The notes under the pieces were generated by a model, which saw nothing but the letters and a program-made list of their open reading frames with translations, made no database searches and had not been told where the DNA came from. From assembly GCA_963556145.1 (NCBI GenBank), contig OY744470.1, positions 4,154,001 through 4,218,000 on the forward strand: 64,000 nt of DNA. The letters are read 5' to 3'. Positions 22,410 to 46,076 of this stretch are shown piece by piece. This stretch comes from Hygrocybe punicea (taxonomy: Eukaryota > Basidiomycota > Agaricomycetes > Agaricales > Hygrophoraceae). Every line of letters starts with the position of its first letter. Position 1 is the first letter of the stretch. A program made the position numbers and the translations under genes.

Positions 22410-22413
22410 GCAG

Positions 22414-23229: not shown

Positions 23230-23247
23230 GCAGTGCACCCTTTTCAG

Positions 23248-23960
23248 CGGGAGTGGTGTGGTAAGAGCGAGAGTGGTGTGGTGAGAGTGGGTGAGGCCTT
23301 AAGGGAGCAGGGAAGAGCGGGGGAGGTGTGGCGAGAGCGGGAGAGGTGTAGTGAGAATGAGAGAAGCTGTAAGAGATCAGGTGAGGCCCCAAGAGAGCAG
23401 CCAGAGAGGGAGAGGTGCGGCGAGAGTGCGCGCGCGCGTGGGGTCTTAAGGGAGCGGGTGAGCATGGGTGAGGCCTTAAGAGATCGGGTGAGGCCTCAAG
23501 TGAGCGAGCGAGAGCGGGAACGGTGTAGCGAGAGCGAGAGCGGGAACGGTGTAGCGAGAGCGAGAGCGGGGGAGGTGTAGTGAGAGCGGGCGAGTACTTA
23601 ACAGGGCGGGTGAGAGCAGGAGGGGTGTGGTGAGAGCGAGAGCGGTGTGGTGAGAGTAGGCGAGGCCTCAAGGGAGCGGGCGAGAACAGGTGAGGTGTAG
23701 TGAGAGCGGGTGAGGCCTTAAGAGAGTGGGTGGGAGCAGGAAAGATGTAGTGAGAGTGGGAGAGGTGTAGTGAGAATGGGAGAGGCTGTAAGAGATCGGG
23801 TGAGGCCCCAAGAGAGCAGCCAGAGAGGGAGAGGTGTGGCGAGAGTAGGGGAGGCAGGTGCAGAGAGCGTGATGGGCATGGAGAAAGCAAGAGAAAGTGA
23901 GGGAGTCATTGAAAGGCGTGGAGAGAGCAGGAGGGGGAAGTGTTGAAAGATCGGAGATCT
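23248..23960. repeat. Purine-rich minisatellite, block 2
   Basis: Same GAGAGCGGGAGAGGTGTAGT-type units as block 1, with interspersed GGCCTTAAGAGAGCGGG units and a short (CG)n patch near 23428. Continuous with block 1 before the interruption at about 22.41-23.24 kb. Confidence 0.88.
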
Positions 23961-26008: not shown

Positions 26009-26010
26009 TA

Positions 26011-26026
26011 CATCAGGAAAAACACT
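26011..26026 (+). repeat. Left terminal inverted repeat of the 20-kb element
   Basis: CATCAGGAAAAACACT, preceded by TA. Identical to the complement of 46059-46074. With three mismatches the match extends 8 bases further (TTGGCTCT versus AATGCTCT). Confidence 0.9.
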
Positions 26027-26071
26027 TTGGCTCTCACATTATCCTGGGAATATTCCATTTTCTCAGGGTGT

Positions 26072-26112
26072 CGGAGAGTGCCACAGAGTGTCACAGAGTG
26101 TCACAGAGCGTT
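26072..26112. repeat. Left subterminal repeats of the 20-kb element
   Basis: Tandem GTGTCRGAGA / GTGCCACAGA / GTGTCACAGA words at about 10-bp spacing, just inside the left terminus. Candidate transposase-binding sites by position; no direct evidence of binding. Confidence 0.55.
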
Positions 26113-26157
26113 GGAAAGAAACCTTAGAGTCACAGAAACTTGTAACCCGTATTATTA

Positions 26158-29100
26158 CTACCAAATAGTTTTGTATGAATACATATTCTGCCAGTTGTTC
26201 ACCAAGAAAGTCCCACATTCATCTAAAACATTATCAGTGGTCCATGTGATATCTGCAGACCTTCTGAACAGAGGTGTTAACATGCAACTCTGCCTAATGC
26301 TCGTTAAAGGAATGATAGAACCGGAACGTTGACCATCGGCACGGTACAGAGGCTTGAGAGTGTACATGTTGTGATACGGTTCTGCTGTTGGTTTCAGTCC
26401 AGTGTACCATTCAATATATGTCAAAGGGGTTTTCCGCCAGATTACTGGTGAAGGTCCCAGGCCGTAGTCTAGCGTTGATGGCAAGGTGAAAATCACCCTC
26501 ACACGTCCAATGCGTGTTCCTGACGTAAAAAATGTCAACATGAGACTGCAAGCTTACCAGGAAGCTTACCTTCAAGACCGGTGGATTCTGCAATGTCAGT
26601 GTGCAGAACTATGACATTGTCAAAGCGGCCTGCTCTTTTCTTGAAGGCAGGAGCAGCCTTTATAACATCACATTCCTCTTCACCATCTTCTAGACTTGGA
26701 GGGTGAAATTTCAAAGTGTGATAGACATCTAACCTTGCAAAAGGTAGCGTGTTCAAAGATGCAACGCGAAAGGTTGTTGGATTCCCCATGATGCGGTTTA
26801 AATAGTCCTTGAGGGCAGTTGAAAATCCTGGAGCATGATGGCGCTCTGCAATGACGTCGATCAATTGACGAGGTTGAGTAGGATATTTAGGAAGTGATAT
26901 CAGCTTACTGGCGGCGTTGTGAGATAGTGATTTGGAAGGAGGACTAGTGGGACGCTGTGAATCCATCCAGGAGACGTAGTGTTGGAATGTGAACATCTTC
27001 TCCTGGCGAGTAAGCCAGTTGATCATTTGTGGAAACTCGTCACGTTGGTTGGAGGCATGCCATCCATCCTTGGCTAAATCGATGTGAAGTCGTTCAAACA
27101 ATTCAGTGTTGTAATTGTCAGTGGTACCTAGAAACTTGATGGACTGGATGTAGTGGTGCAAGGAATGGAACTTAGGGATGTTAAGATCGTCACGTATGCC
27201 GGTTTCAATGAAATAAGTCTTGTGTAGGTTAAATATGTTCAGGGCATCCTGCATGTAACCCAGGGTGACGTCATCATGTGTGCTGTACTGGGCAAGGTAA
27301 ATGAAGTCCAGAAGCGCACGACATGCCACTATGGCCTTCTTGGGCAGAACACCCACGAGACAACCCAGGAGAATCTTAGCCATATTCTTCTGCTCCGTGC
27401 CAGATATTTGAGAGAGAGCAGAGATACCATTCTTAAAGTGACGCAGTCCGTATGCAGGTGGAAGGCAGCGAATACGGTGGTCTAGCTCGTCAGGACCGAC
27501 TGTGCGCTGACACCAGTTTGTTAGATGCTTGAAGACACCTTGGTAGATCTGATGAAGAACATCAAGTGTAACGGCCAGATTGATGTCTGTGTGAGGAAAT
27601 CCGTCCCAGAAAGGCCTGTAAACACTTCCAGATACCTCCCTGTCCATGCAGTACTTGTGGAACTCTGATGCCGTAGCTGACGTCCTCTTTGCCTCATCTA
27701 TTACTCCTAACGTCCACTTCTGAGTTCGATTCGGGTGTGCGATCATATCCTGCAGCTTGTCTGCTGGACACTGACATTTAGGGCATGTTCCGTACTTGGA
27801 ACAAGTAACAAGGCATTGTTCTGGGTAGTCCGCGACGTAGGACGCTAGGACAGGATGGACTTTACGAACCGAACCGTCACCACTGGTCATCTCGATACCT
27901 GACTCTCCTAAGTCTTTCAGGGGTGCCATGATCAATCGCATCGACTCGTGGAATAAACGTTGATTTCTTGCTCGATGTTCTTGTTTAGTCAACTTGTCAC
28001 GGCAAATTTTGTCCACCGAAAGATAACCCACTAGAACTGCAGCATGCTGAGAAGGCTTTCTCCGTACAGTTTTGGGTAGATTTCCCAAAGTGAGATAGAC
28101 AGGATATGCAGACTTGCCACCCGTGAACTGAGTAAGTTGTGTTTTGTCGGTTGCGAGTATCACAGGTGCTAGAGTTGCGCCGACAGGGAGACGTGTCTGA
28201 TAGTAAGTGTGAGACCTATTTCAGAGAGTGGAGAATGTATCGTTGCACACCTGGATTACATGCCACCAAGATCCCGTCCACATCTCAGAATAGACTCTGT
28301 TTGAGCGACTGACGTCGGAATATACCTTCTTTGGGACGTAGACCATACTCTGCGATAAGGCTGGATCACCCCATAGACAACGTATTGCCTCAATCACGTC
28401 TCTGAACCTTACTACGTGCTTCTCCGCAGGACGATCCTTGAAGGACAGATGCTTGGTTTGCCACTTTCCCGCTCTGTGGGGAATGTCGTCGATGATCTTA
28501 TGTAGAGCATGTGTATTCTGGAATGAAAGCCCTAACTTCTGCCTCACCTGAGGGATCCATGTCAGAACATCAGTGTCGACAGAGAATCCAGAAATCTTAC
28601 CCCAGGAATGGACAGAAATCGGTCAAATGCATTGTTTCCTGGACCGTCTTTAATAACCCAATCTGCAACACACCAGTCAAGCTCGGATGCGAAAGGATAG
28701 AACGTGTTTGGTGCAGGGGTGTCCACTCCCATAGTGATGTCACCCTCCCCATCTAGTCCGCTTCCAAACAGGTTTCTCCAGCGTTCGTGTAGATTTTCGT
28801 TCATCCGTATCACACACCCTGCTGCTTGGAATGGGTCTTCTACCCGACTATCGTCTTCGTCATCTAGAACCCTGTGTAGCACATGGCATGCAGTGGATGG
28901 TCCAGGCCCTGCTTCACCAATCTGGACTTTGGGTAACGTAGCAAGTGTGGCTGATGGCATAGGAATGAAGTCGAACAGATCATCGTCATCTGCCATATCA
29001 TCCATTGCGGCCACGACGTATTCATCCATGTGGCTCCTCTGATCTTCCATTTGGTCTGATTGTCCATCGCCATCGCAAAGATCTGAAATCAAGGCTTCTC

Positions 29101-29257
29101 CACCCTCTCCATCCAAATCTAAGGGGGAGAGCTGTGCCAACTTGCCACGTCGATACCAGCAGCATGAGCGTGCCGTTGTGAGGTGGGTGGTGCAGCCCTT
29201 CTTAGTCTTGAAGCTTTTCATGCAGACAGGGCAAGAGAGCTCATCTTGGAGATCCAT
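26158..29257 (-). CDS. Plavaka-type transposase of the 20-kb element, apparently intact
   Basis: Nuclear DDE-type transposase expected to act on the CATCAGG termini. Exon 29257-28601 starts MDLQDELSCPVCMKSFKTKK (C2H2-type finger) followed by an acidic region. Intron 28548-28600. Exon 2 to 28249 ends WWHVIQ. A short intron, 28216-28248 (33 bp, unusually small, so this join is the least certain), precedes the main exon, about 545 codons to 26570. That exon reads ATDKTQLTQFTGGKSAYPVY, RRKPSQHAAVLVGYL, VLASYVADYPEQCLVTCSKY, TCPKCQCP and INLAVTLDVLHQIYQGVFKH, all hallmarks of Plavaka transposases. Intron 26520-26569 joins a last exon (TRIGRVRVIF to stop at 26158). No internal stop or frameshift was seen. 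An upstream Met at 29290 is in frame; 29257 is preferred because it directly precedes the zinc finger. Confidence 0.85.
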
Positions 29258-29669
29258 GGTAGCGTTGTTGCAGCGTTCAGTCAAAAGCACAATATGAAGA
29301 TAACCAGGATAAGATTGCTATAAATGAATGATACTGTGTCACATGGGTCTCTGAGATAAGCCCAAGGAGGAACGGATTTGTGAGAGATCACTGCATGCGT
29401 TACGGAACCAGAATAAGTTTCACAAGTTGAGTCACTAGTCTCAGTATTGTCCTAGCCAGTGTTTAAAAGTAAGCTCCATGAGAGTAGGGCTGTCTGTAGC
29501 GCTGACTTCCCAAAAAGGACCTCATTTTATCGTCTTAAAAAGTACACCTTTTCAGGAAGTCAGCACTGGTCCAGCTGATCTCTCAAAAAGTTATCTTACG
29601 CAACATGCCTTATAATTCACATCGTACGAAACAAAAAGAAATATTAACTCCACCGCCGTCTTCTCGCAT
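29258..29669. other. Intergenic between transposase promoter and kinase 3' end
   Basis: Holds the presumed promoter of the minus-strand transposase and an imperfect hairpin (29499-29566). No coding sequence. Confidence 0.5.
29499..29566. promoter_or_regulatory. Imperfect hairpin H1, homologous to H2
   Basis: Arms GCTGACTTCCCAAAAAGG (29501-29518) and its near complement (29547-29564), 15 of 18 pairs. The 50-bp core 29508-29557 matches the core of H2 (31653-31702) at about 40 of 50 positions counted by eye, with no gap. It lies about 250 bp upstream of the transposase ATG. It could be a regulatory or transposase-binding site. Confidence 0.6.
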
Positions 29670-31501
29670 TCATGGGATCTGCAACGTCTGCCTCATATCC
29701 TGAAGCTCAGGACATTCACTAACACCAGGGCACCCATGGAGGGTGGCATGAGAGAAATCGAGAACTTGGACAACACCAGTTTGAGATAAAACTACGTTGT
29801 CTGGACGTAAGTCTAGGTGACTTACTCCAGCCTGATGGAGGGATAGTATAGCTGCCCACAGATCGTACCTAGGAACATAGCATAAATGAAATGGCTTGCA
29901 GAGGATGTGAACGACATACTGCTGGGCAGGTGAAAGCATAGAGAATGAGCTCAACGATTTACCTGCATCACGCATCAGGAGCACTTGAAAACCCCTCCCC
30001 ACGTACAGACCGTAGAAAGCCGGTATCACAGTGCCCTGAAGCGCTGCGAGCACTGCATATATTTTGGCTTCGTGACGCAGCCATGCTTGGGATTGGGTGT
30101 CAATGGCAACTTTTCCGACGACATTGTCAGCGCAGTGGTGATCAAACCGCCCTCGAAATACATTCCCCACTGATCCTCTGTCCAGAAACGTAGTCAGATG
30201 AAGTTCACGGTATGACGGGGGTGAAATCGCATCAGTCGGAGATTTGGAGCGTTTCAGGCGTGTTTGAATGGACTTGTGGAAGATCGCTAGTTGCATCAGC
30301 CCCTGAATCGCAACCGATGACAGGAGTGCTATTAAGGAGTGGAAAGTAAAGGACTGGCATTCTGGATCAACCACTTCCATGTGCCGCAACTCGTACGTGA
30401 CTACTTCGCAGTGATCGAGATCGAAAGTCAGACATAAAGTGTCCTCCTATAAACTGGAGTCTCTCATCTGAAAACTCAGAGACGCAACTGCAACTCACCT
30501 GTGAGGGTAAAGTCAGACCGGAAAAAAGGGTTGAAAGGGTGTCACCATTGGGAGCCGGGTTGACATTGGAACGTTGCGTTGCCTGACGAGTACGGCCTAA
30601 TGGCTTAACTAATTTAACCATGGGAAGATGAATATCTGGGGGGGTGTCCATGATCGTACCGCCAGTCCGTAAAAGGCAGAAAACGATTAACGGCATAAAG
30701 GGCGTCGTTGAGTCAAGGAGGTGAAGAATGTCTGAGCATAGGAGGCCATGCAGTGGCAAGCCAGGGACAGGGCAAAGTGAGAAGAGCATGTACCTATCTC
30801 CTCCGAAGAGGAGTGCGTAGGGGATGGTAGTGGGACCTGACAGCATAGCTATTCCCATCTATCAGAGGTGATGATGAGTGGGGGGATTACCACTAAGATT
30901 CAGTGCCCACCTTAAAGATTATGGATCTGTGCCCTGTCTTACTAGGGCTCAGCTCCAAAACCGCTCTATTTCTGCCCAGACGTAAGATACCCTCCGCGTG
31001 ATGTGTGAACACTGTCCAGCTCTTGAACTCCACATGTAGCTGTGGATCAGCGTCACGGTGTGGCCGGTATGTTCCATCCGGGATCTGATTGAAAGTGGCA
31101 ATTCTAGTAGTAGGCTCGGGCTGGGTGGGATTTGCGTCAACCTCCTCTACTGCACAACATATGGGGTTAAAGGCACGCTGGAAAAGGAGGCTAGACGACG
31201 ATTCGTGGTCTAGGAGGTAATTCCGGAGGGACCTCTCCAGGCCGGCAATTGCTTGAACCAGTACAGTGGAGGGGGCTAGATGTCGGCCTGGGGCACTTTG
31301 AAGGTAGGCACGCAATGAAGCCAGCATACGATTCGGTAAAGAATGATCATGGACCATGAAAGCCGGTCGTCCTTCCTGATTTGGGGGTGGTATGCTGATG
31401 TTGTATGGGGCGGTGGATGTCGACGTCGAGATCTTGGTGAATTGATGGTCTGAGGGTAGTGGAAAGATCATGCTAGGGACGTATGTCTCCAACGTAGCCA
31501 T
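29670..31501 (-). CDS. Cargo gene: nuclease-like motif fused to protein kinase, intact
   Basis: Four exons (31501-30911, 30858-30499, 30446-29920, 29868-29670) join in frame to about 558 residues. Introns are 52, 52 and 51 bp with GT...AG ends. The C-terminal ~200 residues are a eukaryotic-type protein kinase: glycine loop LDRGSVGNVFRG, the expected lysine in VVGKVAI, glutamate in LRHEAKIYAVL, catalytic loop GVSHLDLRPDNVV, and DFS in place of DFG (VLDFSHA). Key K, E, D, N and D residues are present. The N-terminal half includes HRDADPQLHVEFKSWTVF, whose D...ExK layout resembles a PD-(D/E)XK nuclease fold. Nuclease-plus-kinase architectures are known among Crinkler-like, transposon-derived proteins, but this assignment is inference. 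It lies in the transposon between hairpins H1 and H2, divergent from the TET/JBP gene. An in-frame Met at 31546 is possible. Confidence 0.72.
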
Positions 31502-31727
31502 CCCTCTTGCTATGGAGATACGTAGGTAAGTTTGCAATGCGCCCAATCTTTTTGCTTTGGTTCTTACCTACTGGCGTTCCCCTCCTTATACTTGCTTTGA
31601 TGAAGGGACATTCAGTTAGGTACCGGTAGCGTGGCCGAAGATTCACGTGGTGTCCCAAAAAGGTGCACATTTTTTCGCCGTAAAAGGTGCACCTTTTTGG
31701 GACACCTCGCTGCAGCGCGTACTTACT
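31502..31727. promoter_or_regulatory. Divergent promoter between kinase and TET/JBP cargo genes
   Basis: 226 bp separate the two opposed start codons. It contains hairpin H2. No clear TATA box in either direction. Confidence 0.5.
31649..31706. promoter_or_regulatory. Perfect 20-bp inverted repeat H2
   Basis: GGTGTCCCAAAAAGGTGCAC (31649-31668) and its exact complement (31687-31706) around an 18-bp loop. It ends 21 bp before the TET/JBP ATG (31728). Homologous to H1. In RNA it would form a strong hairpin in the 5' leader if transcription starts upstream. Confidence 0.75.
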
Positions 31728-32311
31728 ATGGACGTTTCTCCGACGGAACTCATGGACCTGCTTCATTTCTTCCGTGAACGCACTGACAGTCTTCCACCAG
31801 GAATATTTGCAATATACCAGAAACTGGAATCGTTATATTCACCAACGTTTCCGACGTACGCTACTCCTTTAGTCGCCCTTCAACCTGAAACCCTGCCACA
31901 CTTTTCTGTTGCTGCCGTGGCAGATAGGCCCTGTCTCAATATTAACCAGCAGGGATTTGGCCATGGCACTGCTCACATCATTGCAGATAAGGTGAGAATT
32001 TCCATCCCTGGGACATCTGACCATTCACATGTTCAGCTCCACTCCTTCTCACAGACTGCTAACCTCGATACGGATGCGGCTTATTCCGTTGTTGTGAGTG
32101 CTTTTGGGTGGAAGTCATTCCTTAGGCGTCTGATGCTTCCCACATCCAGGTCACCGGAGATGCTAACGCCGAAGCCGTATATGACGCACCGGAAGACTCA
32201 CCTGCACGGCTACCTGGCTGCTATATCAACGTAAACAGTTCGGAGCTACGCCGTTTGAACCGTATTGATGGGCGGAAAGACTCAAATCCTTACGGTGCCA
32301 CCGCAGCATCC
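31728..32311 (+). pseudogene. TET/JBP-family gene, 5' part (before gypsy insertion)
   Basis: First exons of the dioxygenase gene whose remainder lies at 41165-43694. It starts MDVSPTELMDLLHFFRERTD. Introns 31992-32054 and 32094-32149 lead to the exon VTGDANAEAVYDAPEDSPAR, ending NPYGATAAS at the gypsy border. This N-terminal region precedes the catalytic domain and has no recognisable domain. The last codon TCC lies in the target duplication CATCC, and after removal of the gypsy the frame continues S-AVNRNGECNRGG. Confidence 0.75.
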
Positions 32312-32867
32312 TGTTAGAGGCGTGCAACTCCGGAAGGATCGGAGTTCTTCGGAGGAGTGGAGATGTCAACTCTTGAAGTAGGTTCACTACTTCCTTAAGT
32401 CGTATTGAGAAGACGTGGATGGAGCGGAGTTAGTCCGGAGTTCCGGACTAAGTACTAAGATAATTAATGAGCTTAAGGGAAAGCCTTAAGTTTGAGAGTG
32501 GGTAAGAAATAAGGAACTCAAGTTGATTTTCTGAACGGAGTTACAGGACATTGTAGTTCTAGTTTATATACTTGGTAAACTAATTGTCATGTCCTTGGAG
32601 ACGTGAAGACAATATGAACTCCGGAAAGAGGACTGGAGTTCGGAAGAAAATAAAAGGGATAAAAGGTTGCTATGTATGGTGACAAGTAAACAAAGGGGAG
32701 GAAGAGAAAAGGAGGTCGGAGTAAACGGAGATGGGGAAGAATAGTAATTAACAAGAGAAGAACAATAATGTACGCGAGAAGATAAGATAAGATAAGATAA
32801 GATAAGTCGGCGGAAAAGTCCGGAGCGGAGTTCGTCGGAATCCGGCGGAGCTGCATGGGATATGACA
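32312..32867 (-). repeat. Gypsy LTR, left copy (3' LTR of the element)
   Basis: 556 bp beginning TGTTAGAGGCGTGC and ending GGGATATGACA. Contains a short tandem GATAA/GATAAGATAA run near 32781-32806. Nearly identical to 40604-41159. Confidence 0.95.
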
Positions 32868-32880
32868 GTATCTCCCCCTT
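32868..32880 (-). other. Polypurine tract of the gypsy element
   Basis: On the minus strand AAGGGGGAGATAC lies directly upstream of the 3' LTR start TGTCATATCC, the expected plus-strand priming site. Confidence 0.7.
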
Positions 32881-32950
32881 AGCGTCGAACCCTTGAGACG
32901 CCTGTGGAACAAAGGGAGAACCGCAGCGGAGTTCAAAGCGGAGGGCCTAC

Positions 32951-32958
32951 GGTATAAA
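32951..32958 (+). promoter_or_regulatory. TATA box of the antisense gypsy gene
   Basis: GGTATAAAAC about 38 bp upstream of the ATG at 32990, just inside the LTR boundary and directed opposite to gag-pol. Confidence 0.55.
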
Positions 32959-32989
32959 ACAAACTCCTGGCCAGGAGACAACCCAAAAA

Positions 32990-33844
32990 ATGTCGTCCTC
33001 GCAATTATCGTCCTCGCAAGAGATAGCCGCGTGCATCAAGGAGATGGAGCACGAATTCGCCGAAATGAGGGTGAAAGAGGAGGCAGAAGAACGGAGAAAA
33101 GCGGAGGATGAGAGGAAGAAAGTGGAAGAGGAGAGGAGACAGAAGATCCAGGCGGAGGCGATGAAAAGGGTGGAGGAGGAAATAAAGAAGAAAACGGCGG
33201 CGGAGGAGGGGGAAAAGAAAGTGGAGGCGGCGGAGGAGGGGCCCTCAAGTGCGGAGAAGGGGAAGAGAAAAAGAGACGGGTAAGCAAAGGCACATAAATG
33301 AAAGACCGGAGTTGACTACAGAAGCAGGGCCGTACAATGCAAGGCGTGCGCGGAACGCCGGGAAAACTGCGTGTGGCCCGTGTCCGGAAAGGCGCGGAGT
33401 TGCGATGCATGTAAGAAGAGGAAAGCGCGATGCGAGGTAGATGGTGAAGAGGGTGGAGTGAAGAAGAAAAAGAACAAGGAGGAAAAGGAGGAATCCGGAT
33501 CGGAGTACCGCGGAGTGGAGCCCGCGGTAAAGAAGCTGCTGACGAGGACGGAGCAGCTTCTTCACAAGCTGCTCCGGGCGACAGAAGACAACATGGCGAT
33601 GTTGGGACGGGTCGCGGAGGCATGCGAGGGGGTATGGGACACCGTGGAGGATCTCTGCGAACATGCGGCTCAATGGGCCGACCATCTGAGGAACTTAGAG
33701 TTCCTCAGAGATAACTCATACGAGCTCCGGAAGTACACTCCGGAGTCCGAGGACATCGCGCCGGAGGAGACGGAAACGGAGTGGGAAGAGGGGGATTTTT
33801 TGGGGAAAGGAGGAAACCTTGAAAAGAGTCCGCGAAAATCGTAA
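32990..33844 (+). CDS. Antisense accessory gene of the gypsy element (coiled coil plus cysteine cluster)
   Basis: Two exons, 32990-33279 and 33322-33844, joined over a 42-bp GT...AG intron give 270 residues in frame. The N-terminus MSSSQLSSSQEIAACIKEME is followed by a highly charged coiled coil (K/E/R heptads, residues ~20-90). After the intron comes a double cysteine set, CKACAERRENC and CDACKKRKARC, each C-x2-C-x6-C with basic residues, similar to half of a fungal Zn2Cys6 cluster. A further charged and helical region ends at 33844, 10 bp from the pol stop on the other strand. It is transcribed opposite to pol, from near the 3' LTR. I recall similar antisense genes in other Agaricomycete gypsy elements. 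Role unknown; zinc and nucleic-acid binding is inferred. Confidence 0.7.
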
Positions 33845-35082
33845 ATAGACAGAATTAATAGGATGGGCCCGGTTTCGAAGGATAAGCGGAGTGAAAGTCC
33901 GAAACGAGCTCAGTAGCATGTCCAAGTTCGGAGGCCAAGATCCAAGAAGTTTCTTCGTCAGTGCCTTCGTAGCCCTCCCAACGTACAAGGTACAGTAGCT
34001 TGCAAGCACGACGGCGGTTGTCGATCTTGGAATCGAGTATTTCGGAGATCTCAAACTCTGGTTCTCCGTTGACAACGACCGGAGGAGGCAGAGGTTGGAC
34101 ACGGTTAGGAATGGTATTCGGAGTCGCCGGTTCGAGCTGAGAGACATGATAGACCGGGTGAACAGAGCGGAGAGCCTCCGGAAGACGGAGGGTATATGAG
34201 TGAGTACCGGCCTTAGCAATAACTTCAAAAGGCCCCAAGTTCTTCTCAGAAAGTTTCTTGGAGGGTCTAGTAGTCCGGAAATGCTCAGCTTTGACGTAGA
34301 CGGAATCCGAAACCTTGAAGTCCAGAGGCGGAGCGCGCTTCAAGTCCGCGTAGTGTTGATAACGTTGTTGTGCCTCAGAGATGGTTTGTCGAAGTTGTTG
34401 ATGTAACTCATCGAGGTCCACAGCGAATTTTCGTGCGTGGGCGGAGGAGAGGTCGCGCTCCGGGTGAACGGAAAGGTTAGGGTGGTAACCTTTATTGGCA
34501 AAGAAAGGAGAAACTCCGGTAGTGGCGTTTGGAGCGTTGTTGTAAGCAAATTCCGCAAGAGGAAGGAGGGACGACCAATTATCTTGCTGATAATTGCAAT
34601 AAACGCGGAGATATTGCTCAAGGGTTTGATTGACGCGTTCCGTTTGGCCATCGCCTTCAGGATGATAACCGGAGGTAAAGTGGAGTTTCATGTTGAGGGC
34701 CTTTCCGAGAGACCGGAAAAAATGGGAAACAAATTCCGTGCCTCTATCGGAGGTGACGTGACTAGGAACTCCGTGCTTAGAAAAAACGTGAATAAGGAAA
34801 AGATGTGCGAGTTGGGGGGAAGTAATCGTATCGTAAGTTGGAATAAAGATCCCTTGCTTGGAAAGACGGTCAACCACAACTAGGATGGCCGTAAATCCTT
34901 CGGAGTCCGGAAGTTGTTCGATGAAATCCATGGAAATTGAATTCCATGGTTTCTCCGGAATAGGGAGCTGCTTAAGCAATCCGTAAGGACGATGCCAAGG
35001 GGTTTTGGATCTCGCGCAGGTTGTGCAAGACTTGCAGTAATCACGGACAAAAGTCCAAAGTCCGGGCCAGGTGTATTCCCGC

Positions 35083-35216
35083 TGGAGTAGGACTAGAGGT
35101 CCTACTCACTACGATGGCATGGTCATGGCATAGTCAATCTCTCCTAGTCTGACTAATCCTACTACAAACATCTATCTACGACTAGATCACGTGACTATCC
35201 CAATCCTCCTACTACA
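35083..35216 (-). repeat. TRIM terminal repeat, left
   Basis: 134 bp, TG...CA ends, contains AGGACTAGAGGTCCT, itself an inverted repeat. Confidence 0.9.
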
Positions 35217-36755
35217 TGTCCCCTCCTCCAATATGGCGACGTCCCCGTCGCCTCATCGCTGAGAAACAAAGCAGGAACAGAAAGAGAACTAACCAAAATC
35301 CAACATCTCCAAACTCCAAACCAAAAGAACTCCTACTCCGTCAAGGTCTTATGAAATGCTGCCTACACTAAGGGATACCTCACTCCAGTGGATGCCGCCG
35401 CAGGGATACCTCACCGTAAGTGGCTGCCGCTGTCCTGTAGACCAAATCGCCTATGTTCAAAGGTTGGTAACGCTCGTGGAATAAAGAAGTGGGGTGTGGT
35501 ATGGTGTGGTAGTGTCGATGTTTGATGGAACAAGTGCTGATGTCGAGGGAAAGTGGCCACGGGGGTCAGGGTGGTCTCTGGGATCAAAAACAAGGTTTTA
35601 TCAAGTATACGCGAGGGGGCAGTAACACTGTAGCAAGGGAACATGCAGGGTTGGTGCTTGAGGGCTCGAAAATGGCAAGTATGGGTTGACGGTGGCATAA
35701 ATAGCTTGTCGGATCGTCGAGCGTGGATGCTGGGGGGTATTTGTGGGGTCGCGAGGGGTCAGGAACGAAGCTGGGGGCCCTAACAAACATACGCGAGGGG
35801 GGTTGGAACCAGGGGAAGCGGGATCGCGAGGTGGTAACGCAAGACGGCGTTGGGGGTCCAAACATGGTGGGGACGGCTCGTTTGGAGCGTTGATGGGACG
35901 CAGGGTACTCTGGGGTGGCAAACGGGTGGGCCGCTGGGCTTGACGAGATGGTCTGGGCCAGTTGCGTTGGCAGAACGGGGCTGCGCGGTGATGACATGGC
36001 ATGTGGCCGGGGTGTCAGAAATGACGGCAGGGGCTCGTTTGGCGCGATGGAGGGGAACGGGGGGTCCTGGCCGGCGGAACGAGTGTGCGGGGAGTCGAAT
36101 GGGTCCGTGTAGGGGTGGGGGTGACGAGAAACGGGGGTCTAAGAGTGGTGACGTGGCAGATCCGTGGGGTGACCAAAAGGTGCGGGGCGGTTCGTTTGAG
36201 ACGACGAGGCGTGACGGGGGGTTCTGGCAGATGAGCCGAGGGTGCGGGGAGTCGAATACATGCATTTTGGGTTCGGGGTGCATGGAAACAACAGGGTCCG
36301 TACAGCGCTGATGCGATTTCCGTCGGGCTGTCCAAAACTCGCTGTAGCGGGGTATGTGGGATCCTGATGGGGAACGCAGGGCTCCGGAACGTCGAACGAA
36401 GTTGCGGGGGGTCGTCTGGACATGGCTGGGTCTGGGGATAGTGAAAATTCGGGGGGTTGAAAAAAGGTGACGTGGCCTGCCATTTGGGTGCTGAGAAGGG
36501 TCGCGGGCGCGTTTTTGGGTCAACTCGGGGCGACGCGGGGCCCTATTGGGCTGAACATGAGCGCCGGGGGGTAACTTGAGTGTCGTACGGCCGTGAATGA
36601 AGAGAGAATGCGCGGTTGCGCAGCAGTGGGTGGTGAGGCCGCGTGAAAAAAAATGTAGTCGCGAGAAAGCTAGCAAAAGGCTCAAAGAAGGCTCAAAAAC
36701 GCCAGAGAAAGAAGAGAAAGCAATGGTGAGACGAATCACACTCTCATCACCACGA

Positions 36756-36889
36756 TGGAGTAGGACTAGAGGTCCTACTCACTACGATGGCATGGTCATG
36801 GCATAGTCAATCTCTCCTAGTCTGACTAATCCTACTACAAACATCTATCTACGACTAGATCACGTGACTATCCCAATCCTCCTACTACA
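36756..36889 (-). repeat. TRIM terminal repeat, right
   Basis: Same length as the left repeat; I saw no differences on reading. Confidence 0.9.
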
Positions 36890-39384
36890 CCGCCGGATGA
36901 TTTCTCGAGTCTTGTTTTGCCCGAAGTGTCCTGCAGTAGGGTGATCATGTTTGGAACGCAAAATCCGGAGTCGTAGGTCATTGACATCAGGGACATAGAT
37001 ACGATTATCGAGGCGTAGAAAACCTAAATCGTCGATAGACCATCGAGGATCTGGGCCGGAGGTGGTACGGGAAACATGTCCGGAGGCAATAGGATCAACC
37101 TGTAGTCCGGAGATGATATCGGAGTGAAGGGAATCGACGTCTATGGTGAATCCGGCGCCAAGGACTACATCTTCGAGGGAAGTCGCTCGGAGGGACGAAG
37201 CCAATTGTTCCAGCCCAAAAACAGGGCGGAAATTGTGAGGATTGGCTTTGGCGTAGTCGCTATCTCCCCCTTTAGCGTAGACGTCCCAGCGTCGAGTAAG
37301 GGTATCGGGCTTAGTGCCAAGCTTGCCTGGGCGAAAGCGGATAACAAAGTTGAAGCGGGCAAGGAACTCCGACCAGCGGGCTTGATGGCGGGTAAGTAAG
37401 CGGACGGTGGAGAAGTACTCCAAATTCTTGTGGTCGGTGATAACGTCGACCGGAGTAGCAGTACCTTCCAAATAATGCCGCCAGGCAGTGAAAGTGTCGA
37501 AGATGGCAAGGAGTTCCTTGTCATGGGTATCGTAGTTCAACTCCGAGTCCGAAAGGGTACGAGACCGGAAAGCAACCGGATGAATTTCACCATCAGGATG
37601 GCGTACGGAGAGAATGGAAGCAACGGCGTAATCGGAAGCATCAGTCTCCACCAGAGTGTCAAACTTGGGTGACCAATGGGAAAGGATTGGAGCGGAAATG
37701 AAAGCGGACTTCAAGTCATTGAAGGCGGAACGACACTTACCATCGAAATTCCATTGTAACCCTTTACGAGTGAGCCGGGTAAGTGGAATAGTGATGGAGG
37801 AATAGTCCGGAATGAAATGCCGGTAAAAATTGGCGAATCCAAGGAAGGATTGAACATCTTTGATCTTCCGGGGTTCCGGCCAATCCTGGATGGTTTGGAC
37901 CTTGGCAGGATCCATAGAAAGGCCTTGGGGGGAAAGAATGTAACCCAAGTATTCCACCGTGTCAACGCCAAAAGAGCACTTCTCAGCGTTGGCATAGAGG
38001 CCGTGTTTCCGGAGTCGTCGGAGGACCTCGCGGACATGGTCTACATGATCAGCGGGGTCATCGGAATAGATAAGGATGTCGTCAAGGTAAACAATGACAG
38101 AGACGTCAAGGAGGTCGGAAAAAATATCGTTGACGAAGTGTTGGAAAGCCGCCGGGGCGTTAGTAAGACCTTCCGGAATTACCAACCATTCAAACGAGCC
38201 ATAGCGAGTGCGGAAAGCTGTTTTCCACTCATCACCTTCGGCAATCCGGACTAAATGGTAGGCGTGTTTAAGGTCAATTTTAGTGTAAATGCGCGCAGTC
38301 CGGGGAGCGTCGAGAAGGTCCGCCGTAAAAGGGATAGGATAGCGGTCCTTCTTCGTGATACGATTGAGTCCTCGGAAATCTACGCAAAGTCAAAGACTTC
38401 CATTTTTCTTCCGAGAGAAAAGAATGGGAGCTCCGCAGGGAGAACGGGAGGAGCGGACGAAACCCGCCCGGAGATTCTTGTCAAGGAATTCCCGAAGGGT
38501 CTCGAGCTCTAAGGGTGAAATAGAGTAAATCGGGCCAAAAGGAGGTTTTGCACCATCCTCTAAATTAATTTTGAGGTCGTAAGGATGGTGTTCAGGGAGG
38601 TTCCAAGCCTTCGTCTTGCTAAAGACGTCAGCGAATTCGTGATACTCTTCAGGGATATTGTGAAGGTCCACGGAGGGTTCGGAGGACTCCGGAGGGCCGT
38701 AGCTTGCAGAGCGACCGGTGGCGTCAGGTAATCGGACTTCCATACGGAAGACCTGAGTGCCGGGTACTTTGCAACCACGCAAAAAGGCTTGAGCGCTGAC
38801 AAAGGAGATGTCAGGCTTCGAAGCGGATGGTGAAGGAGGTTCGGGCGGAATAGATGGAGAGGACGGAGGGGACGGAGGTCGTACTGGAGGGTCCGGAAGT
38901 GGTGCCTCGCTAGGCACCGGAGTCGACAACGGAGGCGCGGAATCAGAAGAACGGAATTTAACGCTATGCTCGATCCAGTCAATCAACGGATTGTATTTGG
39001 CAAGCCAGCTATATCCAAGAACTGCGGAAACAGACGGATCCAACGGAGTGACCAAAAATTCTAAGATTAGAATTTCACCAGTAGAAAAACGGACAGAGAT
39101 AGATACACATTTGTCGATGATTCCACCGGAGGAACCATCAAACAAGCGGAGGCGTTTCGGAGCAGTAGGAAAAATAGGAAGATTGTGAAGGGAACAAAAT
39201 TCCGGGTCAATGAAACAATGCGTCGATCCACAATCCACAAGGGTAACGATAAGCGTAGAAGAATGATAAAGAGAAATCGTCAAGGAATCGTTAGAAAGAG
39301 CGGAAGCGTTGAGTTTTACTTCCGGTAGTGCACAGTCAGGTTCAACGCAGCCTACATCCTGTGCCGGAGTATGCAGACTGCTCT

Positions 39385-40563
39385 CTATTTTTCCGGTTCC
39401 TCTAGAGAATCGGAACTAGAGACCGGAGGTGTGGAGGAAGTGGAGGCAGCGCGGGCGGCAACGCGAGTGGACGAATACTTGGCCTTGGTGCAATCCTTGG
39501 CCATGTGTCCGGCTCCCCCGCATATAATGCAGAGTTTATTGTCGATGCGGCGTTGACATTCCGCGGGCTTGAGTTTACCATCCTTGCCTAGCTTATCGGC
39601 GTAGACAGGAGGGGTTTTCAGAGTGGTGGAGGAGGTACTACCGGAGTTGGTAGTTTTGGCAGGGGACTTCTTCTCAGAAGCTTTTTCGGTTGAAGACTTG
39701 GCCTCGGAAGTAGAGGCTTTAGCAGAAGAGGATCCCGAAGTGCGGGAAATCTCCGATTTCCGTTCCCAATACCGGGCGTCAAGGAGTTGAGCCTTATCCT
39801 TCAGTTCGTAGAGGTTCTTTGGTTTCTCGGATTGGGCAAGTTGATCTTTGAGGCGATCCGGAAGTCCTCGGTAAAAAGAATGCCGTAAGGCACCGATGTC
39901 CCAGCCAGTCTGCGTAGCGAGACGATTGAAGTTAACGATATACTTCGCAATTCGTTGGTTATCCTTCATTACAAGGTTTTCCAACTCGCTCTCGGCGCTA
40001 CCTTTAGGGTCCAGAGGTCCGAAATTATTCTGCAACTCCGTGCAGAAATCTCCGTAATCGGACATGAAGTCCGGCGGATAGGTATCGATATCCAGGTTCT
40101 CCAAAAGGTAAGGCTCGAACCACGCAAGTGCGATCCCTTTGAGGTAGGAGAGGGCGAAGTTGACTTTGGCGCCGTCCGTTTGGAAAGCGGTTGGTCGATC
40201 ATTGAAGTTCAGTTGACACTGAACCAGGAAAGGGCGGAGTTTTGTCGGATCGGAGGCGTCAAACGTGTCCGGTTCTCGGACTTTGGTGCGTTGCTTGTCG
40301 TCTCCTTTGTTTCGGAGAGTAGTGGCTAGAAGAGCGATGGCCTCAGCAAGGTTGGTATCATCGCGATTAGGATTGCCCGGTCCGAGAGGATTGTTCTCTT
40401 CGAAGACTGGGCGCTGAAAGGGTTCGTGTCTCGGAGTGTGAGTTTCTTCTAACGGAGAGACCGGGGTTATCGTTGGGCGTTGGGATGAGGTGTTTGCTGG
40501 TCGTGTAAGTCGATAACGTGTGGGGGTTCTTCGTTGGGAGAAGCCTTGGAAAGACATGATCAA
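39385..40563 (-). CDS. Gypsy gag (capsid/nucleocapsid)
   Basis: Open frame of 392 codons. It starts MIMSFQGFSQRRTPTRYRL about 40 bp from the 5' LTR. A retrotransposon gag segment reads KLRPFLVQCQLNFNDRPTAF, AWFEPYLLENL and LENLVMKDNQRIAKYIVNFN, followed by a Ser/Lys-rich linker and one CCHC knuckle CIICGGAGHMAKDC. The gene is undamaged. A second Met two codons downstream is an alternative start. Confidence 0.9.
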   Translation of the reverse strand: MIMSFQGFSQRRTPTRYRLTRPANTSSQRPTITPVSPLEETHTPRHEPFQRPVFEENNPLGPGNPNRDDTNLAEAIALLATTLRNKGDDKQRTKVREPDTFDASDPTKLRPFLVQCQLNFNDRPTAFQTDGAKVNFALSYLKGIALAWFEPYLLENLDIDTYPPDFMSDYGDFCTELQNNFGPLDPKGSAESELENLVMKDNQRIAKYIVNFNRLATQTGWDIGALRHSFYRGLPDRLKDQLAQSEKPKNLYELKDKAQLLDARYWERKSEISRTSGSSSAKASTSEAKSSTEKASEKKSPAKTTNSGSTSSTTLKTPPVYADKLGKDGKLKPAECQRRIDNKLCIICGGAGHMAKDCTKAKYSSTRVAARAASTSSTPPVSSSDSLEEPEK

Positions 40564-40603
40564 ATGTAAAGGGAATACGACTCAAGAGTTGTTCAGAAAA
40601 TAC

Positions 40604-41159
40604 TGTTAGAGGCGTGCAACTCCGGAAGGATCGGAGTTCTTCGGAGGAGCGGAGACGTCAACTCTTGAAGTAGGTTCACTACTTCCTTAAGTCGTATTGA
40701 GAAGACGTGGACGGAGCGGAGTTAGTCCAGAGTTCCGGACTAAGTACTAAGATAACTAATGAGCTTAAGGGAAAGCCTTAAGTTTGAGAGTGGGTAAGAA
40801 ATAAGGAACTCAAGTTGATTTTCTGAACGGAGTTACAGGACATTGTAGTTCTAGTTTATATACTTGGTAAACTAATTGTCATGTCCTTGGAGACGTGAAG
40901 ACAATATGAACTCCGGAAAGAGGACCGGAGTTCGGAAGAAAATAAAAGGGATAAAAGGTTGCTATGTACGGTGACAAGTAAACAAAGGGGAGGAAGAGAA
41001 AAGGAGGTCGGAGTAAACGGAGATGGGGAAGAATAGTAATTAACAAGAGAAGAACAATAATGTACGCGAGAAGATAAGATAAGATAAGATAAGATAAGTC
41101 GGAGGAAAAGTCCGGAGCGGAGTTCGTCGGAATCCGGCGGAGCTGCATGGGATATGACA
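40604..41159 (-). repeat. Gypsy LTR, right copy (5' LTR of the element)
   Basis: 556 bp, same ends as the left copy. The left copy shows T where this copy shows C at six of the transition differences. Confidence 0.95.
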
Positions 41160-41164
41160 CATCC

Positions 41165-43694
41165 GCAGTTAACCGGAACGGTGAGTGCAACCGAGGGGGT
41201 ACGAAGCACCGGAAAAAGACCAAGAGCAAAGGGAAGCAGCAAAAGGGTTGGGAGGTCACAGATCAGCCGGTTCACATTTTGGGAGCTCGTGCCTCCGAGA
41301 CCATCTCCAATCTATCACAAGGTGCGATCAGCAACTTGTCAAACGCATCCACACGGTCCTGGATCCAGTCCATGCAAGCTTTGGTGGCAGGTGGTGTTTG
41401 GGAGGGCGAGAACGTGGCTTTTGTCACGGATTCTCTGCAGTCGCTCGTCCTTCGATGCAAACGTAGCCTGGAAATGGCTGCGGGGCTCGAGTTTATTATG
41501 ATGATTAATATGGTACAGTTAGCTGCGAAAACAGACTAGTGAGTCGCCCTTACTATAGGTGCTTGCATATACTCACAAGCTTCCCAGCGTCATGCGGACG
41601 AAAGGGCTTAAGTCTACGGGTAACGTCTTCCATCATTACGTCTCAGGAATGGACGGAGGGCCATCTTTATCAACATTTCGCACGTGGGTAGGCAGTGGCA
41701 CAAAGTTCGCTTCGATTGCAGGCGCAGGTGAGTAGTTCCTCTGCCTATCATCAGACTCTGAAACCGCCACCTCGCAGGATCTGTCTATTGTCTAATGATT
41801 ATAGCCACCAAAAACCAAAGGGCTGCAATTTCCCAGATGAAGTTCGACGAAATTTACGCCATATCAAATGCGCTTCGCTGGCCTGACCCAGGTAAGTAGC
41901 GGTGGATCTGCTCCTCTTTCGACTCTTTTCAGGTCTTTCATCAGATAGTGATGCGGGGAAGGATATTTGCCAATGCCTTATTCCACTCATCGACTACCTG
42001 CGCCGTAACATCCCCTTAAGACTTTCCACAATGTTCCCTCATAGTCTGCTAAATGATACCAACATGATGGGAGACGTCGATTGTTCTGACTTGGATATGT
42101 CAGATAAATTTTTCGACAGCATCCAAAAGAAGTAAGTGATCAGTTTAACCCCTTGATCAAATAGTGACCTGACCGCGATAGCTCTTTCATGTCGCTCACG
42201 CGGAACCGTGAAATCTGGGCGCAATGCCTAGAGCCTCAGGTGGGGCCGTCGGCTGACCCAGCACCTCTCCATGTAATGAATCAGAATCTACTCTTGTCAT
42301 ACGTATCGCGGGGATCGGTTCCTTCCGAACGTCCACCGTCACACTTCTCTGATTCTGACAGTGACGACCCGAACCCTCAAAATCCACTCATCAGTGACTC
42401 TGACAACTTGCAGGCACCTCTGCTGATGGATGAGTTTCATTTTCCAGACGACAGGGCGCCCAACTACGCGGTCCTGAACACATGCTTCAATCAACAAGCT
42501 AGACAGAACTTAGCGGTTCCGTACCCCAGGGAAAAGGGTGCTAGGAAACTTTATATGGATGAGCAAAGAAGCTATGCCGCTGCAGCCCAGGTTCCCCAGG
42601 ATAGTGCTGATTTTGCACGTACGGTAAGGCTTTGAAGTCATCACAAAGTACTGGAATTGATCGTACCTTTAGATGTCTGAGCTATACGACGACAACGGGG
42701 TGAAGGGAGCCAATAATTATGTTTTGATGGATGAAAAGATATTTGAGGGGTCAGCTTAGCCTTTCTTTCCATGTTATCACTTGCTGATGTCTACCTGCTG
42801 ACAGTAAGGAAGTTCGTATCAACGGCTCAGACAGTTCACTTGGTGTGTTTGTCTGGGGTGATATGCCCCAGGACATGCGTACGTCGTTGGAACGTAACGT
42901 TCGGAATGCCTTGCTTGTCGAGAGTGGCCCTTCCCTGGTTCACGTGGATAGTTCGGCTGCTTCACTTGGGTTTAAGTTTCCCTCCATTCATCTAGACATG
43001 TACATTCGCAACGGCCCACGCGTAGGTGAACCATGTGTGGACAATTACTAATCTTACTGATGCCTTTGAATAGGGCGATGGTGCACCATCTGACATGCAC
43101 CCTTACCTGCTACGTCGCAAAGGGCCTCTAAGACGAATTACTATCAACTCATTCCTAGAGTCTCTAAGGAGCTCATGGAACATACTAGAGAATATACCAA
43201 CCTTTGCAATTCCTTCGAAGAGTTTTTTTGGTGGGTAGAAGAAAAGGTTAATTTCATTGTCACTTTATTTTCCTGCTCTGGGAGTACTCATGTGATCCTA
43301 TTAGCTGACTGGACGACTTCCTGAAATTTATGAAGATCTTTCCATGTTTGTGGACGTGCTTCCTGGCAAGGAAGCTTCTCCCTCTCATCCATTCAGCGGT
43401 TTCATCCTTAACATCAATGCCATCACACGCTGTCACAGGGACGTGAAGGATCGCCGTGTCTGTCTGGTTTTGGTTATAGGAGATCATGTAGGTGGTGAGC
43501 TTTGTTTACAGGAACTGGGTTTGGTGGTGCGCTTGCGTAATGGCGACGTTGTGGTCTTTCCCTCTGGTAAAATCACTCACTTAAATCTCCACTATCAGGG
43601 TGTCAGGGCATCTATAGTTCTACATTCAGACAATGCAGGGCCGAGTTGGGTAGAAAATCGTAATCATTGGATGGGACACGATTACATGTATTGA
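41165..43694 (+). pseudogene. TET/JBP-family 2-oxoglutarate/Fe(II) dioxygenase, catalytic part (after gypsy insertion)
   Basis: Continuation of the gene begun at 31728. It contains the conserved regions of fungal JBP1/TET-like proteins: a basic stretch (HRKKTKSKGKQQK), then GNVFHHYVSGMDGGPSLSTF, FASIAGAG-SVYCLMIIATKN, an acidic middle segment, and a C-terminal double-stranded beta-helix. Metal ligands are His (codon 43434) and Asp (43440) in TRCHRDVKDRR and distal His (43578) in GKITHLNLHY; the 2OG-binding Arg is at 43605 (GVRASIVLHSD). The family oxidises 5-methylcytosine or thymine in DNA. Introns are numerous (for example 41711-41764, 41892-41935, 42134-42180). Near 43133 the reading shifts by one base between LLRRKGPLRR and NYYQLIPRVSKEL, an apparent frameshift. 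With the gypsy this copy is inactive as it stands. Confidence 0.8.
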
Positions 43695-43784
43695 TAATTT
43701 TATTCACGCCAATTGACTTTTTATTTGTTTGTCCTTGGTGTGTTTAGGTTGACTTTCGGTTGACTTTCCAACTTTCATTACCTC

Positions 43785-45722
43785 ATGACAAGGTCGACAT
43801 CCAAACGCGGGAAGCTCTCAGCTTCTTCACATGGTGTGAAGGCAACGGAGCCTGTTTCGAAGCCCAAGCCCAAGCCTAAACCAAAACCCAAACCCAAACC
43901 AAAATCAAAGCCTCGTGCCAACGATGAATCTCAGGATGACTCTGCAATTGATTCTTCAAGTATCTCAATTGATAACCTGTCTACTGCTGACTTGAAGCTC
44001 TGGAAGCAGTTTCAGGCTAAGATGAAGTCACAATCAGCTGCTCAGTTGCAGGAGGAAGAAGATGCACGTACGTTCACATTTATCATGTTTTTACTTATAT
44101 TTATTAACAACTACACGGAGTGGTACGCAAGCGCAATGCGGAGATGATGGCTGAGGAGGATGATAGTGAGGATGAGGAAGGGGAGAGAGTTCCTACGGGC
44201 AAGAAGCAGAAGTTAAACGTAGTCCTGGACAGCGACGAGGAAGAGGAGAGAGTTCCTACAGGCAAGAAGCACAAGTTAAATCTAGTCCTGGACACTGATG
44301 AGGAAGACCTGCATGCCGTTCTGGGTGATGAGTTGCTGGGTGACGATGATGACTTCAACCGTCGGTCTCCTCCTTTTCAAATTACTGCATGTTAACCCTT
44401 CTTCCAGACGATGAGAATGCGAATATGAATGAGCAGAATGGATGCCTGGATGAGAATGTGATAGGAAACGGTGTAGGTAATCTCTTCATGATAGGGAGCA
44501 TAGTACTGCTAAAGGTCAATTATAGATCGCTGTTACCTTTGAAGATGAAGACCAGGGCCAGACATCCAGGAGGGGTACACGCTCCCAGCGGCACCTGGCA
44601 TCTCGTACCACTACATCTCAGCTGGGGCACTCTGAAAAGCTAACCAAGAACAATTTCACACCACGAGGAATGCATCTAGCAAATGCAGGCAAATCTATGG
44701 CAAGAGAGAAGATTGCTTTGACCCATGCATTCCCTAAGGACAAGGATGCCTTCATTTGGGAATCCATTCAACAAGCTGTGAAGGATAGTCAGTCGCTTCG
44801 TGAAGCTTTGGAAAAGGCGCGTGATGATCCAGATTATCAGGATAATTTGATGGAATACGTGGGTTTCCAGGTGAGGTTGTAGGCTGTTGAGCTAACATGG
44901 TGATCAGGTTGGTTACGCGATAACTGGTTTAAGGGGCGACCTCAAGGCAAAGGCCAAAGCCGGCATTGCTGGCCACTTTGGCATTCCAGGTAACATGTCA
45001 AAAAGTGAAATAGAGAATGCGATACGTTGGGTTTTGGATGGGTCGAAGTTCACACGTGGTGAAGTCAACATGGAGGCAAGTTTCAATATGCTTTCAATGA
45101 GAGAAGACTGATGGGCCATTCTCACAAAACAGAAACGAGAAGTGGTAAATCCAGAGCCATTTGGTCATCCTATAATTGGCGACATCATCAGAACTCAGTG
45201 GTGTGGAAAGGGTAAGGCTGATATCCAAGCATATATGGCCATGGTCGCTCAGAAGAAGATACCGGAGGCTGTAATCCTGGCAGTTGTTACTGCGGTACGT
45301 GTTTATGTCACTTTACATGATGTGTACAACTGGATAACCTTTACCCTAGGTTGAGAATGCATTGATGGAGTGGGCGAGCGGGGAGTATATCCACTTACAA
45401 TTCAGCCACGAAGTTGCTAGTTCAAGGTAAAGTGATGAAACTACTGATATGCTAAGTTATCTTAAAGTGTGATCTGAGTAGATATGCTCATCATCAAGCT
45501 ACATGGGGAACTTTGAAGAAGAAGTCTCCAACGTGGACGGAGAAGAAGATGAAGACCTTGTTTCAGACCGTCATGTAGGAAGTGTTTAACCAGGAGGATG
45601 TTTCTGATGCACATTTCCACAGGAAAAACTCCAAATATGCCGCAATTCATGCTCAAGACACAGAAAACAGGGATCTCGATGACGTTGATTTCGCGCAGCT
45701 GGAACAATCAGCATTGGTATAG
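43785..45722 (+). CDS. DUF6532-type cargo protein with KP repeat
   Basis: Multi-exon plus-strand gene just downstream of the TET/JBP gene. The N-terminus MTRSTSKRGKLSASSHGVK is followed by a (KP)n run (about eight units) and an acidic linker with a tandem duplication of about 23 residues (ERVPTGKKQKLNVVLDSDEE and a near copy). The C-terminal part reads KDAFIWESIQQAVKDS, YAITGLRGDLKAKAKAGIAG, NPEPFGHPIIGDIIRTQWC, PEAVILAVVTAVENALMEWA and FSHEVASSRYAHHQ, the pattern of the Agaricomycete domain of unknown function DUF6532. Introns include 44068-44120 and one at 45076-45132 that starts GC rather than GT. A TAG at 45576-45578 precedes another 47 open codons to the stop at 45720-45722; it may be a premature stop. 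A nuclear role linked to the dioxygenase is inferred from position only. Confidence 0.65.
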
Positions 45723-45859
45723 AAGTGCAGTGGCTGCTCAGAAGAGTTCTTTCTCCTTTGCTCTTTATTTAGAAGTCTCTTTCCACCAATGTTGCGTTTA
45801 CTATATTCAAATTTAGATGACTTATATCTGGGTGAATCAGAGTAAATCAGAGTAAATAA

Positions 45860-46056
45860 AAGCAGAAAAACCAGGCTTTCAGAGCACTCTGTACAGCTCA
45901 AACGCTGCTCAAACGCTGCTCTAAAGTGCTCTAAAGTGCTCTCAGAGCAGAGAGCCTCAAGCAGGTTGCTCTCAGAGCCACTCAGAGTGCTCTGGCGGCT
46001 TTGGTGCTTTCCTCACTCTGAGCGGCTCTGAGACTCTCTCAGAGTGCCTCAGAGCA
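45860..46056. repeat. Right subterminal repeats of the 20-kb element
   Basis: Dense CTCAGAGTGCTCT / GCTCTGAGAG / AAACGCTGCTCT words in both orientations, next to the right terminus. Different in sequence from the left subterminal repeats but likewise built on an AGAG core. Confidence 0.7.
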
Positions 46057-46058
46057 TT

Positions 46059-46074
46059 AGTGTTTTTCCTGATG
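46059..46074 (-). repeat. Right terminal inverted repeat of the 20-kb element
   Basis: AGTGTTTTTCCTGATG, followed by TA. Exact complement of the left terminus. Confidence 0.9.
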
Positions 46075-46076
46075 TA

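Follow-up and report, generated by a model that had tools for sequence, protein, structure and literature searches.

A probable PlavakaB-type transposon with putative kinase-like and TET-like genes, nested in a MULE-type gene of Hygrocybe punicea

The 64,000-nucleotide stretch of the Hygrocybe punicea genome analysed here (contig OY744470.1, positions 4,154,001 to 4,218,000; hereafter the window) contains a MULE-type gene that is split by a DNA transposon extending from position 26011 to position 46074. The left terminal inverted repeat (TIR), CATCAGGAAAAACACT at 26011..26026 on the plus strand, and the right TIR, at 46059..46074 on the minus strand, are exact copies of a 16-mer that occurs genome-wide, and these are the only two sites in the window that match it with up to two mismatches, against 0.11 sites expected from shuffled sequences. 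TA lies immediately outside each end, at 26009..26010 and 46075..46076, so that the perfect, TA-flanked 16-bp repeats described in the original prediction, which was made from the letters of the window alone, are exact.

The flanking halves are two parts of a single minus-strand MULE-type gene, the 5′ part at 46077..48729 (upstream limit approximate) and the 3′ part at 24239..26008 (downstream limit approximate). The transposase exon of the right flank, 46057-46908, matches PF21056 at 30.6 bits, above the cut-off of 27.2, and PF10551 at 25.9 bits, below the cut-off of 27.6. Read by hand, this exon terminates in ...NVWHGL and the left flank resumes with CFHHLSGN across a single TA, which agrees with the split gene and the WHGL-CFHH join that had been predicted. 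An uninterrupted MULE copy, L010 on contig C39, is 96.8% identical to 900 bp of the right flank and 96.7% identical to 700 bp of the left flank; the two matches are contiguous there and overlap by exactly the 2-bp TA, of which the empty copy has one. The window and the empty copy differ at 52 positions, 47 of them transitions and 37 at CpG. Besides the window's own gene, 46 MULE relatives were listed, and the frame at the site was read for the five nearest by identity (L010-L014), all of which read WHGLCLHHLSGN unbroken, as the empty-site check proposed with the prediction had anticipated. Together with the transposase described below, these results show the insertion of a Plavaka-type element into a MULE copy. 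Because L010 is a paralogue, it gives no demonstration of excision at the window locus, and neither excision nor an empty allele at the locus was seen, so that the earlier description of the gene as "reversibly" split is not sustained.

The Ulp1 label attached to this MULE gene is not supported either: no Pfam match to Ulp1 (C48 peptidase) was found up to E 10 among seven separate open reading frames (ORFs), and the label goes back to H-W and Q..C motifs read by eye. A literature search on fungal Ulp1-MULE elements led nowhere.

The element had been predicted to be a 20-kb transposon. The mobile unit is instead 11.2 kb, because the segment 32312..41159 is a nested Ty3/Gypsy retrotransposon with a 5-bp target duplication of its own, CATCC at 32307..32311 and again at 41160..41164. 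This minus-strand element of 8.85 kb has long terminal repeats (LTRs) at 32312-32867 and 40604-41159, and encodes gag, protease, reverse transcriptase, RNase H, integrase and a chromodomain. Its LTRs are identical at 548 of 556 positions, and seven of the eight differences (1.4%) are transitions, six at CpG. A sister copy of the host transposon, C35:6212795-6223996, is a contiguous 11,202 bp at another site with a TC duplication of its own; it is 98.70% and 98.72% identical to the window on either side of the Gypsy block, and it keeps continuous a 186-codon ORF that Gypsy breaks in the window. These two copies differ at 145 of 11,200 positions (1.3%, similar to the divergence of the Gypsy LTR pair), comprising 122 transitions, 88 of them at CpG. 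The predominance of CpG transitions among copies of the transposon, the MULE gene and the LTRs would fit methylated, deaminating DNA. The Gypsy element is itself interrupted, in its integrase region, by a TRIM-like insert of 1.8 kb (35083..36889) with 137-bp direct repeats identical at 136 of 137 positions and a 4-bp duplication, CCGC. The nesting gives the order of events as MULE, then the Plavaka element, then Gypsy, then the TRIM-like insert.

In the 92.2-Mb genome the 16-mer occurs 139 times, and the reversed control sequence does not occur. Among the 100 places listed, to which the TIR census refers, 84 pair up as 42 inverted pairs, of which 23 span less than 3 kb (22 of these 1.5-2.4 kb), two span 3-10 kb and 17 span at least 10 kb. 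The genome-wide search for inverted pairs proposed with the prediction thus recovers a family, of which the expected TA flanks are not a property. Duplications were read for 25 pairs, namely 24 hand-picked from the 42 listed and the window's own; the flanks of three were read by hand (CT/CT, CA/CA and CT/CT). Equal 2-bp flanks were found in 21 of the 25 (chance 1/16 each, p 5e-22), and they represent nine dinucleotides: CT in four pairs, TA, TC, AA and TG in three each, GA in two, and CC, GG and CA in one each. The target duplication is therefore 2 bp of any sequence, not TA. Of the short copies, one of 2,078 bp was read from end to end; it resembles the element mainly at its termini, over 124 bp and 49 bp, and has no match to the Plavaka transposase exon. 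At C2:1157406-1161540, three adjoining inverted TIR pairs, one of 323 bp, lie within about 4 kb as clustered or nested short copies.

The main transposase exon, at 26535..28220 on the minus strand and some 0.5 kb inside the left terminus, is open over 561 codons and matches PF18759 with E 2.6e-85 (287 bits, cut-off 26.3) and PF20722 with E 9.8e-6. In a search that scored 78 of 573 candidates, so that counts are lower bounds, near-full-length transposase exons were found in at least 15 places at 92-100% identity, the window's own included, and in at least 10 places at 69-77%. According to the part of Kojima (2025; PMC12730594) consulted, PlavakaB elements are bounded by CATCA..TGATG and duplicate 2 or 3 bp of their target, and the element has these termini and a 2-bp duplication. 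The locus is thus very probably an 11.2-kb PlavakaB-type (CMC/CACTA-like) cut-and-paste transposon that inserted into a MULE gene and was enlarged by Gypsy to 20,064 bp. What had been predicted stands as regards a TIR transposon with a 2-bp duplication inside a MULE; neither the Plavaka transposase nor the kinase-like and TET-like cargo had been named.

Upstream of the main exon, the minus-strand ORF at 28562..29317 shows a C2H2-like motif by eye and no Pfam match, and is probably the N-terminal exon of the transposase. It is followed on the same strand by a protein-kinase-like exon at 29670..30446 (Pkinase, E 1.6e-6), which has relatives in the sister Plavaka subfamily and also beside a DDE_3 transposase, and by further ORFs at 30367..31567, of no convincing family, that may lie in or beside the kinase gene. 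On the plus strand, a candidate TET-side gene begins at 31620..32311 and continues beyond Gypsy at 41165..43694, with its catalytic exon (HxD ... H ... R) within 43305-43694. The gene model of its first part is a prediction; homologues of that part also accompany the DDE_3 family, on the same strand as TET. Gypsy interrupts a TET-side exon, and therefore the TET gene of the window copy is probably inactive, alongside a main transposase exon that is open. The last gene, at 43764..45720 on the plus strand (limits approximate), contains pieces of DUF6532 (PF20149), at 45112-45354 with 31.4 bits against a cut-off of 24 and at 44896-45111 with 23.3 bits, just under it; the ORF at 44526-44882 has relatives elsewhere in the genome. 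A search of the literature for DUF6532 led nowhere, and the term does not occur in the main text of PMC12730594.

All seven TET sequences that were aligned, from the window and six relatives, match PF12851 (Tet_JBP) at E up to 0.1, and H94, D96, H142 and R151 (P0005 numbering) are invariant among them. With residue roles taken from the consulted part of PMC12730594 and by eye, these positions correspond to a 2-His-1-carboxylate triad and a distal Arg. The HxD motif is kept in 7 of 7 sequences. The hallmark of the published Plavaka TETs, which are of the PE type, is HxE (PMC12730594, as far as consulted), and therefore the window TET departs from it. The position of CcTET Asp337, located by a hand-counted, ungapped offset from HxD, is Val or Ile in the window TET group.

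The putative TET gene diverges from the kinase-like gene on the opposite strand, and this arrangement recurs in the genome. TET matches number 61, of which 53 were tabulated after eight short fragments had been dropped; for this table, 45 of the 87 matches to Plavaka, 45 of the 90 to the kinase and 16 of the 150 to DDE_3 were used. The DDE_3 search scored 150 of 456 candidates, so that its counts are lower bounds, and all co-location counts are raw, without statistical control. In group a (17 TETs at 90-100% identity to the window), a Plavaka transposase lies within 25 kb in 16 cases and within 15 kb in 14, and 16 of the TETs have an opposite-strand kinase no more than 15 kb away. Group c (15 TETs at 67-74%) has Plavaka within 25 kb in 11 cases and within 15 kb in nine, with the opposite-strand kinase within 15 kb in nine; the Plavaka transposases of groups a and c share about 76% identity. 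In group b (15 TETs at 79-85%), 14 TETs have a same-strand DDE_3 transposase at a distance of up to 3 kb, and 14 have the opposite-strand kinase within 15 kb; Plavaka lies within 25 kb of a single one, 19.8 kb off and enclosed by a TIR pair of its own, and within 15 kb of none. Near group d (six TETs at 44-46%), neither Plavaka, DDE_3 nor kinase matches were found. Among the full-length DDE_3 matches listed at 90% or more, 13 of 13 adjoin a group-b TET (within 1.2 kb). Near group-b TETs there are 15 weak homologues of the window ORF 31620-32234 (35-47% over about 60-85 residues), all 15 on the TET strand, so that the unit would consist of a TET gene of several exons and a kinase gene transcribed away from it. 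The interval C34:1799356-1819616, bounded by a TIR pair with unequal flanks (AA/TT), contains Plavaka, kinase and TET pieces over 20.3 kb.

The DDE_3 transposase of the second carrier matches PF13358 at 28.8 bits, barely above the cut-off of 28.6, and its family is one that we take to be Tc1/mariner-like. At C34:207049-216995, about 9.9 kb, inverted ends of about 418 bp (98% identical) enclose the DDE_3 transposase, TET and a divergent kinase. The flanks of this one copy with both ends located are TAG and GTG, giving no clear duplication; two other copies of the family, of which left ends alone were located, start at the same repeat base, TTATTGTGTATTGCACG. The repeat GTGTTGCC, which at up to one mismatch has 83 forward and 81 reverse places, was considered for the ends of this element. 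It was discarded as a member of a small family of repeats, many of them about 0.37 kb long, and because the two other copies start at TTATTGTGTATTGCACG. The idea that KDZ carries the C34 cassette was likewise rejected, since no KDZ place among those listed, from a search that scored 150 of 429 candidates, lies within 60 kb. The KDZ transposase domain PF18758 is present in at least 186 places in the genome. Short repeats whose ends read GTGTTGCCACGGCTATAGCCGATG make up a family with many pairs about 367 bp apart, and the C34 DDE_3 element seems to be nested in one such repeat (C34:206996 and C34:217112).

In pairwise comparisons from one query, the window TET is nearer to the TETs of the DDE_3 family (79-85%) than to those of the sister Plavaka subfamily (67-74%), which suggests that TET was exchanged between transposons after the Plavaka subfamilies had split. 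In the fullest form of this reading, a counter-silencing cassette, made up of a kinase gene and a divergent HxD TET/JBP gene that fits neither the PE nor the AG hallmark as published, may have passed between unrelated transposon superfamilies within one genome, its bearers being two subfamilies of Plavaka and a DDE_3 (Tc1/mariner-like) family of many copies, a proposal to which we give slightly less than an even chance.

The TA outside both window ends might point to a TA-targeting element of Tc1/mariner, PHISTA or ESTA type, the more so as PHISTA and ESTA, which also bear TET, duplicate TA according to the consulted part of PMC12730594. But this is refuted by the non-TA duplications, TA accounting for just three of the 21 pairs with equal flanks, and the transposase is that of Plavaka; this explanation is therefore extremely unlikely. 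The same very low probability applies to the view that the locus is not one element and that two short copies, or rearranged ends, bracket unrelated genes by chance. Short copies are indeed common (23 of 42 pairs are below 3 kb), and 16 of the 100 listed 16-mer ends are unpaired, yet the 11.2 kb and its ends are found again, at another site, in the C35 copy, the transposase sits close to the left TIR, and it is repeatedly accompanied by this set of genes. The unpaired ends are one of several results that weigh against the preferred reading of the locus and its cargo. Flanks were unequal in four of the 25 pairs read (C2:6165149, C2:6179962, C2:7411200 and C34:1799356). The window segment 43305-43694 matches PF12851 with E 6.1e-7 and 29.3 bits, below the curated cut-off of 34.9, as do two further TET sequences (27.9 and 14.6 bits), and the kinase-like exon, at 28.1 bits, falls under the Pkinase cut-off of 31.7. 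PDB sequence searches returned no TET, giving chance-like matches, mostly to designed proteins (best E 0.00035), and an AlphaFold model of the TET domain, with a mean pLDDT (predicted local distance difference test) of 36.4, was of too low a quality to be informative.

The kinase and TET genes could also be passive hitch-hikers without a role for the transposon. The TET side is interrupted in the window copy, and Kojima regards TET gene transfer between transposons as passive (PMC12730594, as far as consulted). However, the metal-binding residues of TET are kept in all seven aligned sequences, most TETs of the three groups with a transposase have the opposite-strand kinase within 15 kb, and the same author, in the part consulted, reads intact TET frames as implying a role for the transposon; passive carriage thus seems the less probable state of affairs, though a serious one. 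If the PlavakaB-type element works as its genes suggest, its transposase would bind the 16-bp ends together with adjoining short repeats, excise the element and join it to targets with a 2-bp stagger, and may also mobilise the shorter copies. The TET/JBP-like enzyme would oxidise 5-methylcytosine on the element and so relieve silencing, with the divergently transcribed kinase as a possible accessory.

TET-carrying PlavakaB elements have already been published, and the insertion in the window, an element of a familiar type jumping into another, is nothing out of the ordinary. In the part of PMC12730594 consulted, TET-positive Plavaka is known from two Agaricales, Agaricus bisporus and Gymnopus confluens; the window element shares with these the transposase, the termini, the 2-bp duplication and an internal TET/JBP gene, but has HxD where they have HxE. 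The HxD metal site is common to the window TET and the AG-type TETs of Kyakuja/Zisupton and CcTET, for which no transfer between superfamilies is reported in that part; unlike CcTET, with its Asp337, the window group has Val or Ile, and it gave no sequence match to solved TETs. The word kinase appears twice in the main text of PMC12730594, each time for the alpha-kinase of IS3EU, whereas the window kinase adjoins a Plavaka TET. The TET-positive IS3EU elements of rust fungi likewise have a TET gene next to a kinase gene in a DNA transposon, but there an alpha-kinase accompanies an IS3EU transposase, and here a weak Pkinase match accompanies a Plavaka transposase. In the part of PMC8290104 consulted, the autonomous Plavaka of Marasmius oreades is also defined by PF18759, and TET or kinase cargo is not mentioned for the Plavaka and KDZ elements of that species. 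DDE_3 (Tc1/mariner-like) is not among the 11 TET-bearing lineages listed in PMC12730594, the words mariner and Tc1 are missing from its main text (figures and supplements aside), and no related literature on TET with Tc1-mariner was found in the sources consulted. Relative to what was consulted of that paper, the HxD TET in Plavaka and the kinase-TET cassette common to a DDE_3 family go beyond the published account.

To the left of the MULE gene, at 21638-23905, lies a low-complexity tract of minus-strand ORFs of Ser/Pro/His-rich repeats.

The insertion itself offers a clean layered history of MULE, Plavaka, Gypsy and TRIM-like elements. Demethylase-bearing transposons lend themselves to testing whether mobile elements fight epigenetic silencing, and a cassette common to two unrelated transposase families would allow the same enzyme to be compared in combination with different transposition machineries. 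If the kinase partner is real, it would add a second, unexplained arm to the counter-silencing strategy.

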